Assembly: GCA_028871525.1 (NCBI GenBank) | Contig: JAGWMX010000021.1 | Coordinates: 1-34,993 of the forward strand | DNA: 34,993 nt | Source: Gammaproteobacteria bacterium | GTDB lineage: Bacteria; Pseudomonadota; Gammaproteobacteria; Nevskiales; Nevskiaceae | Reading direction: 5' to 3' | In this document: in pieces, positions 1,222 to 2,255 of the stretch | How positions within the stretch are numbered: position 1 is the first letter of the stretch | Layout of the letters: each line of letters opens with the position of its first letter | Made by a program: the position numbers and the translations under genes | Notes under the pieces: model-generated | What the model was told of the DNA's origin: nothing | Database searches by the model: none | The model's input: the letters and a program-made list of their open reading frames with translations, nothing else

Positions 1222-2255
1222 ATGCTGACTGCCGCGAACCGGCCGCTGCGCCGATATCCGCCCGAGCCGTTCAGCCTCGAAATCGGCGCGCTGGAACGCC
1301 GCGCTCTGGATCTGGACTGCGGTCGGGTGACCTACCTGCGCCACGGCGCAGGCCCGCCGCTGCTGTTGGTGCATGGCATCCCGGCCCCGACACAGTGCCC
1401 GAGCGATGCGAGGTGGGTGCGGGAGGGGCCGGAGGGCTCGCGGAGGAAGGCGCGGGTCGGGGCCCGCGGCTCGCTCCCGCACCCACCGTTCCGGACACCG
1501 TGTCGCGAGCTGACCTCGGCGCACCTGTGGGAACCGTTGCTGGGCGATCTCGGGCGGCACTACGACTGCATCGCCCCCGACCTGCTCGGGCTGGGGCGCT
1601 CGACGCCGGCCGCCGGCGCGGATCTGGCCAGCCCCGGTCAGGCCGACATGCTGGCCGCCTTCCTGGACGCCCTGGGAATCGACCGGACGTTCGCGGTGTT
1701 TCACGATCAGGGCGGCGCGCACGGCCAGCAGATGCTCAAACGCCAGGGACAGCGCCTGCGCGCCGTGGTGTTTACCGACTGTGTCTGCTACGACAATTGG
1801 CCGGTGCCGATCGTGGCGGCGATGATGCGCATGCCGTCGGCGGTGCGAGCGCTGGCGGCCGTGCGCCTGCTGCAGCACGGCATGTGCTGGGCAATCTGGC
1901 CGCAAACCCCACGCTGCGCGGGCCGATCCCGCGCGCGGCGCTGGCCGACTGGGAATTTGCGCTTGACCACGGAGGCGAAGCCCTGGAGGCCTGGATCCGC
2001 TACGTCACCGCGCAGTCGCCACAATGGACGCTGGACGCGGTCCCGGCGCTGCAGGCCTGGCGCAAGCCGGCACGGGTGATCTGGGCCGCCCACGACCGCT
2101 TCCTGCCGCCGTCCTGGGCGGTGCAACTGGCGCGCGACATCCCGGGTGCCGACGACCATCCGGTGCTGCTGCCGTTCGCCGGCCATTTCTGGCAGATGGA
2201 GGTTCCGCGCAGCGGCGGCGCCGAAACGATCGCGACGTTCTTCAGCGGGCTTTGA
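1222..2255 (+). pseudogene. Alpha/beta-fold hydrolase, interrupted and frameshifted
   Basis: The start ATG at 1222 opens an alpha/beta-hydrolase resembling the haloalkane dehalogenase/epoxide hydrolase group. The oxyanion-hole motif LLLVHGIP is present, followed later by TSAHLWEPLL, APDLLGLGRS and a nucleophile-elbow region HDQGGAHG. Two lesions are visible. A 129-bp in-frame insertion (1384-1512) separates HGIP from TSAHLW, which are normally adjacent. A frameshift near 1880 moves the frame from RLLQHG to VLGNLAANPTLRGP. The C-terminal part keeps WAAHDRFLPP and a final AGHFWQME that would carry the catalytic His. The gene converges on the patatin gene and overlaps its end by 14 bp. The classical Gly-x-Ser/Asp-x-Gly elbow is altered to HDQGG, which is also seen in some members of this superfamily. 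Confidence 0.75.
1384..1512. repeat. 129-bp palindromic insertion inside the hydrolase gene
   Basis: This stretch is absent from the normal protein reading. It is built of nested inverted repeats. The outer arms are CGACACAGTGCCCG (1388-1401) and CGGACACCGTGTCG (1492-1505), 12 of 14 complementary. The inner arms are GGTGGGTGCGGGAG (1412-1425) and CTCCCGCACCCACC (1474-1487), perfectly complementary. It has no coding content of its own. Size and symmetry suit a REP-like or MITE-like element. Parts of it recur between rplT and pheS. Confidence 0.6.

Follow-up and report, generated by a model that had tools for sequence, protein, structure and literature searches.

The 129-bp insertion in an alpha/beta-hydrolase gene of a Nevskiaceae genome, located in the 34,993-nt stretch of DNA analysed here (the window), most likely represents one copy of a mobile repeat that is non-autonomous and consists of two REP-like hairpin units in inverted orientation. 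The insertion belongs to a repeat family built from a stem-core-hairpin unit, copies of which occupy sites with empty counterparts in relatives, and the same gene position is filled in unrelated lineages. Judged from reading frames, most full-length copies in the genome of origin and at least 36 of 92 elements in Gallionellaceae appear to be read through in frame. The element belongs to a clearly structured family of paired, REP-like hairpins that often enters genes in frame and for which the literature searched gave no description. A preliminary description of the window had proposed a small non-autonomous mobile element, which is borne out by the many copies, the empty sites in relatives, the nested and tandem copies and the lack of any gene inside; the two inverted REP-like hairpins, the in-frame habit in genes and the spread to Gallionellaceae had not been foreseen.

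The window insertion and its hairpin units

The insertion lies at positions 1384–1512, exactly where it had been placed, and corresponds to a 127-bp element (1384–1510) followed by a TG dinucleotide (1511–1512), 43 codons in all. It separates the 5' part of the hydrolase gene (1222–1383, forward strand), which ends in HGIP, from its continuation in the same frame (1513–1890, forward strand), which starts with TSAHLW, the flanks being GGCATCCCG / CATGGCATCCCG on the left and ACCTCGGCG / ACCTCGGCGCACCTG on the right. The interrupted protein matches Pfam Abhydrolase_1 (E 5e-15), and its nearest solved relatives are haloalkane dehalogenases. Orthologues with long matches were found in two of 61 genomes, G013 (69% identity) and G002 (66%); both have an empty site, where HGVP is directly followed by TSARLW and HGIP by TSSRLW, respectively, so that homologous proteins do exist without the 43-residue insert. 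The site had also been called datable: the insert is indeed absent from these two same-family orthologues, but the hydrolase has no match at E≤1e-12 in the single same-genus genome searched, and the date is thus weak, being only "after the split from those genera".

Homology in the frame of the insert stops near position 1875, and tblastn with the two orthologues, as well as the anchor spacing, places a frame shift between ~1875 and ~1917, the 3' part of the gene (1917–2255, forward strand) lying in another frame owing to decay or assembly error. Going by these frames, the gene has probably become a pseudogene, provided that the assembly is correct. The insert was said to keep the frame, and it is read through in that of the gene, but since the gene is itself frameshifted further downstream, this proves nothing for tolerance there, and an argument from frame to tolerance in the window was ruled out. 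The related statement that the insert has no coding content is right in that it holds no gene, but it is open in at least four of the six frames. Elsewhere in the window, positions 1–840 contain long overlapping ORFs on both strands with no Pfam match, and look like degraded coding DNA at the end of the contig.

The nested inverted repeats previously noticed were both found, the main one pairing 1412–1437 with 1462–1487 (81% complementary) and the outer one 1388–1401 with 1492–1505. Two hairpin units are present, the first on the forward strand (1382–1432; outer arms CGGCCCC / GGGGCCG, core ACACAGTG ... GGGTGCGGGAG) and the second, inverted, on the reverse strand (1467–1511; outer arms AGCTCGC / GCGAGCC, core ACACGGTG ... 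GGGTGCGGGAG); they score 63.2 and 63.3 bits, respectively, with covariance model R1, which was built from an alignment (A1) that includes both of them. Across the family, a single unit measures ~44–53 nt and is often found as an inverted pair, with a spacer that is either short (3–5 nt) or long (36–42 nt), while solitary units also occur. Each unit combines an outer stem, paired but variable, with an unpaired core that is conserved (GACACGGTG / GGGTGCGGGAG) and an inner hairpin that is again paired and variable. The (nearly) invariant columns over 52 units are precisely the two unpaired strands, and the stems vary freely yet stay paired: 90.1% of 618 cells are paired (97.0% in the outer stem, 80.3% in the inner one), and double changes affect 13 of 13 pairs and 177 cells, versus 52.3±5.9 in shuffles and 17–34 in slid controls.

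G-T pairs account for 10 of the 618 cells, and 40 of the 52 units have an inner loop of the GNA triloop type, which forms unusually stable DNA mini-hairpins; the few G-T pairs and the GNA loops point to a DNA hairpin rather than an RNA. The window insert itself folds with a z-score of -3.2 as RNA and of only -1.9 as DNA. A known structured RNA was rejected, as a comparison of 11 loci with Rfam gave three matches with E values of up to 5, all of which fell short of the gathering score and lay off the unit.

Distribution and host genes in Nevskiales and Gallionellaceae

The 129-bp sequence is not unique in its own genome (G000; 2.71 Mb in 146 contigs, 92% complete), where a genome-wide search at E<1e-7 retrieved ten full-length and two partial copies, 12 places in all. 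The full-length copies are on contigs C31 (the window), C98, C68, C117 (one, plus three in tandem with a period of 129), C64 (two) and C95; the best two besides the window copy are 98% and 92% identical to it, and copies within the genome diverge by up to 28%. Model R1 detects 21 hairpin units at E<0.01. A pattern search for the end motif was swamped by chance matches (552, versus 450 for the reversed control). Elements are 127 or 130 bp long, plus 2, with tandem periods of 129, 132 and 99. A CG dinucleotide borders the element on the left in eight of eight full-length loci (1382–1383 in the window) and on the right in seven, the window copy having TG at 1511–1512; this is presumed to be a 2-bp target duplication, which is indistinguishable from an element carrying CG itself. 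Among 146 relatives, with the genome of origin counted, blastn matches occur in 23 and unit-model matches in 35, of which 34 are in the same family.

All seven gene-internal loci of this genome are open through the element, and six of them pass a test of flanking codons, the seventh (the N-terminal M28 copy) being callable on one side only. The in-frame hosts are the hydrolase, a GSDH-type dehydrogenase, a Nudix/metallo-beta-lactamase protein, QueG, where the insert sits exactly between RKA and GS when compared with QueG structures, an FAD_binding_3 protein and an M28 peptidase (twice). The FAD_binding_3 gene, which is FAD-dependent monooxygenase-like, carries three tandem in-frame copies amounting to 129 codons (L005:1501-1885), the first two near-identical and the third more diverged. 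An eighth locus (C95:10142) lies near the N-terminus of a putative hydantoinase-like ORF, and a two-unit copy of 98 nt in a putative YjbQ-like gene breaks the frame.

In Nevskiales as a whole, the majority of two-unit elements are not clearly inside genes: 9 have the same coding frame on both sides, 3 another frame, 12 coding sequence on one side and 16 on neither, while 5 are at an edge. The unit finder picked out 126 elements. The Nevskiales tally omits 16 Gallionella-type loci and 26 from unrelated taxa, and a few of the single units are chance matches (e.g., L134 and L077). Further Nevskiales hosts recognized by Pfam are HtpG, enoyl-CoA hydratase, GlyS and LysR. Other repeats are also seen in this order. 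In the same-genus relative G001, a unit lies within a ~240-bp repeat (L038:1393-1643 and L057:1393-1634) with ends GAAACTCTGAATAACC / GGTTATTCAGAGTTTC, part of which resembles the Rfam family sX9 with a score below the gathering cut-off, and in Nevskia (L101, L100 and L102) the element sits inside another repeat of the ACCGGCGAAAGCCGG...ATCCAG type, i.e., repeats are nested in repeats.

At least 117 core-bearing stretches were found among GTDB contigs, mainly from Nevskiales, then from Gallionella, Sideroxydans, Ferrigenium and Nitrosomonadales MAGs, and from scattered other taxa; the unit model confirmed the Gallionella-type set, partly with an inverted partner. A related 99-bp (33-codon) form occupies 142 places and is present in 13 of the 13 Gallionellaceae-type genomes searched, one of which (G158) is titled only Gammaproteobacteria. 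Eighty regions were chosen from the longer of these matches. The codon test, applied to 92 elements in 87 loci, classified 36 as flanked by the same frame and open, 7 as having the same strand but another frame, 1 as lying between opposite strands, 29 as coding on one side and 19 on neither; none of the 92 combined the same frame with a stop, and 33 of the 36 in-frame elements use three of the six possible frames. The held-out accuracy of the codon model (488/488 in Nevskiales, 289/306 in Gallionellaceae) is partly circular, since training and testing both relied on ORFs picked by GC pattern. As for the immediate borders, the tabulated flank bases show G at -1 in 82 cases and C at +1 in 58.

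Gallionellaceae hosts identified by Pfam are FumC, AceE, HisF, ArgS, RlmN, MurG, a GltD-like oxidoreductase, RecG, GlnE and PhoH. PDB homologues of QueG, FumC and HisF lack exactly the insert, which is the sole unmatched part in comparisons with E. coli FumC (1fuo) and reconstructed HisF (4evz). An AlphaFold model of FumC with the insert (11 sequences) reaches a mean pLDDT of 66, with the insert block lowest (~23), and being weak is only compatible with disorder of the insert. Over the 34 codons of the insert, dN/dS was 0.19, 0.60 and 1.26 and undefined in four pairs, which is uninformative and shows no sign of protein-level selection on the insert, an idea that was rejected; the values of 0.11–0.12 for the host genes probably reflect mainly the time before insertion. 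Two further observations concern these hosts: in the ABC exporter of one Gallionella MAG, a second palindromic repeat of ~62 bp (ATAACCAGCGACTTGG...CTAGTCGAATGGCTAG...) is nested in the element and the ORF is still open (L307:3295-3357), and the contig end at which the fumC sequence of G150 starts falls inside a further, tandem copy of the insert (L462:1-120).

Occupation of the same sites in separate lineages

Eleven genomes have a FumC match, and the insert, located before the HPND motif, is present in four of them (G146, G147, G149 and G150, with one FumC match each) and absent from the other seven. Similarly, an insert in an ABC exporter is present in 5 of the 11 genomes used for the tree (G148, G149, G150, G153 and G158) and absent from G146, G147, G151, G154, G155 and G157, while G152 and G156 gave no full orthologue and were left out. 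With the insert removed, monophyly of the occupied alleles is rejected by both gene trees (deltaL 122, AU p 4e-51 for FumC; deltaL 247, AU p 7e-112 for the ABC exporter). Inserts sharing a site are closer to each other than their flanks are in 22 of 22 pairs. Over 19 pairs, inserts are 93.9% identical (1760/1874) and the adjoining 15 bp of flank 77.3% (439/568), with flanks overall at 75–82%; this set comprises 17 of the 22 pairs and two with L348, after removal of the four with L307, which has the nested repeat, and of one with a 208 bp flank. Gene conversion with flanking tracts was ruled out, as flank identity does not rise toward the insert border.

Recent, repeated insertion is the preferred reading of this same-site occupancy. 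Alternatively, each site was filled once, long ago, the insert being kept under nucleotide-level constraint as a useful DNA or RNA hairpin (for mRNA processing, or as a nucleoid or repair site) and lost precisely in many lineages. We consider this unlikely, even though it accords with inserts being more conserved than flanks in every same-site pair, with the sharp end of conservation at the border, with the strong covariation and with same-site inserts usually being each other's nearest relatives, as is mostly the case in the ABC exporter. The occupied alleles are, however, scattered over both gene trees, so that many precise losses would be needed. An insert in a different gene, from genome G151, also matches the FumC inserts at 97–98% identity, which equals or exceeds their similarity among themselves (96–97%). 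Copies within G000, moreover, differ by up to 28%, and retrieval by similarity favours conserved copies, a caveat that applies to re-insertion as well as to ancestral insertion.

For repeated insertion, the following scheme can be proposed. The inverted pair would move as one unit, by means of an enzyme that acts in trans and recognizes a folded single DNA strand in which the two stems hold the core strands. This enzyme would join the element at a short G/C-centred target, namely CG in the window genome and the junction between G and C in Gallionellaceae; with a short target and few tolerated sites, re-use of the same place is plausible. The common moving lengths (127+2, 130+2 and 99 bp) are multiples of three and stop-free in most frames, and a copy landing in a gene would consequently add a peptide rich in Pro, Ala, Gly and Ser, probably disordered, whereas untolerated copies would be removed by selection. 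In the window, the target lies directly after the HGxP motif of the haloalkane-dehalogenase-like hydrolase, in a gene since lost or misassembled. More tentatively, the element could be a homing-like palindrome. Having no gene of its own, it would return, in separate lineages, to one and the same codon of particular conserved enzymes (FumC, the ABC exporter and others), and would do so in units of three bases, guided by the folded single strand and the variable stems. If true, it would parallel inteins at the protein level, though with no splicing involved.

Mobilization and relation to known palindromic elements

ERIC is a 127-bp element with a TA duplication. The present family could in principle be a comparable MITE, derived from a DDE transposon, that has inverted repeats at its termini and duplicates 2 bp (CG), given its imperfect inverted ends, its length of 127 bp, the absence of a gene inside and the CG that flanks it left and right in 7 of 8 loci, which again might equally belong to the element. 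The length, the imperfect palindrome and the presumed 2-bp duplication are what it would share with ERIC and other MITEs (PMC10969869). Nevertheless, this explanation is rather improbable: units occur alone, no long element with these ends was seen, and the outer stems vary freely while remaining paired, a pattern not accounted for by a fixed terminal repeat that is bound as a duplex. The element also differs from ERIC in having CG instead of TA and in its common in-frame intragenic copies. An autonomous partner with the same ends was likewise not seen, nor any transposase, among the 25 commonest of the 226 Pfam families in 122 neighbouring proteins, the genomes being incomplete.

REPs and REPINs are short hairpins, often in inverted pairs and partly inside genes, which carry a GTAG tag and are moved by RAYT, according to the parts of PMC3116915 and PMC3733652 that were available. 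A REPIN of the Pseudomonas kind, mobilized by a RAYT (a Y1 tyrosine transposase), would fit the inverted hairpin pairs and a presumed single-strand recognition, and Y1 genes are present in 99 of 146 relatives and in 12 of 13 Gallionellaceae-type genomes. Against this, the element has a longer unit with two stems, a conserved core and variable stems, and the GTAG tag is absent from both the 52-unit consensus and the invariant columns. Furthermore, G000 has no Y1 match, nor have 7 of the 35 unit-bearing genomes (G000 among them); no unit clearly borders any of 50 Y1 loci (one match, E 0.11), and no blastn element lies beside 30 Gallionellaceae Y1 loci, with one stray pattern match (L518). Four of the same 30 loci are bordered by a second palindromic repeat, with the CTAGTCGAATGGCTAG core, which served as a positive control and is the one nested in the element in the Gallionella ABC exporter. 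RAYT mobilization was rejected on the missing Y1 genes and the Y1 loci with no bordering unit, and the REPIN explanation is accordingly given little credence. The search returned no mobilizing enzyme, and carriage by phages was ruled out, the exact core pattern having no match in viral contigs. Least probable by far is an intron or bypass element, in which the insert would be excised from the mRNA or the ribosome would skip it: the vicinity of conserved enzyme motifs (HGxP, HPND) and the recurrent occupancy are reminiscent of homing introns, but in-gene copies are open and keep the frame, making either process needless, and there is no Rfam match.

The closest known kinds are the Rickettsia palindromic elements (RPEs) and intragenic REPs. 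As far as RPEs are described in the available passages of PMC10969869 and PMC3733652 (Ogata 2000, 2002), they are palindromes of ~100–150 bp, found in frame and translated in many unrelated host genes, with no known mobilizing enzyme; a palindromic repeat in frame in many unrelated genes is also what was found here, and the element resembles RPEs in behaviour, a likeness by description, not by sequence, for which no homology is claimed. It differs from them in its occurrence in free-living Nevskiales and Gallionellaceae, its two-unit architecture, its covarying stems and invariant core strands, and the filling of the same sites in unrelated lineages. Another group, the CGTC-tagged REPs, for which Sideroxydans lithotrophicus is named as a host, shares paired hairpins, location inside ORFs and the lack of an associated transposase (PMC3733652, in the passages available); the features given there, namely a CGTC (or TGTC/CCTC) tag, an 8–9 bp stem with a 4–5 nt loop and a CCA tail, are not in the consensus or structure of the unit. 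Literature searches on palindromic elements, RPEs, REPs and these taxa listed no description of this family in Nevskiales or Gallionellaceae; the passages of PMC12306157 do not mention the genera at issue, and those of PMC3770913 do not deal with palindromes.

In-frame, protein-coding palindromes have so far mainly been treated as a rickettsial curiosity. Here, a structurally well-defined family behaves likewise in core metabolic enzymes of two free-living groups of Pseudomonadota, and unrelated lineages have the same sites filled. Such natural replicates of full and empty sites, many of them within one gene, make the tolerance, age and site choice of protein-invading DNA measurable, and provide a clear target for finding the missing mobilizing enzyme of REP-like elements that lack a transposase. 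As predicted from the open in-frame inserts, the host proteins would carry a translated stretch of parasitic-looking DNA.
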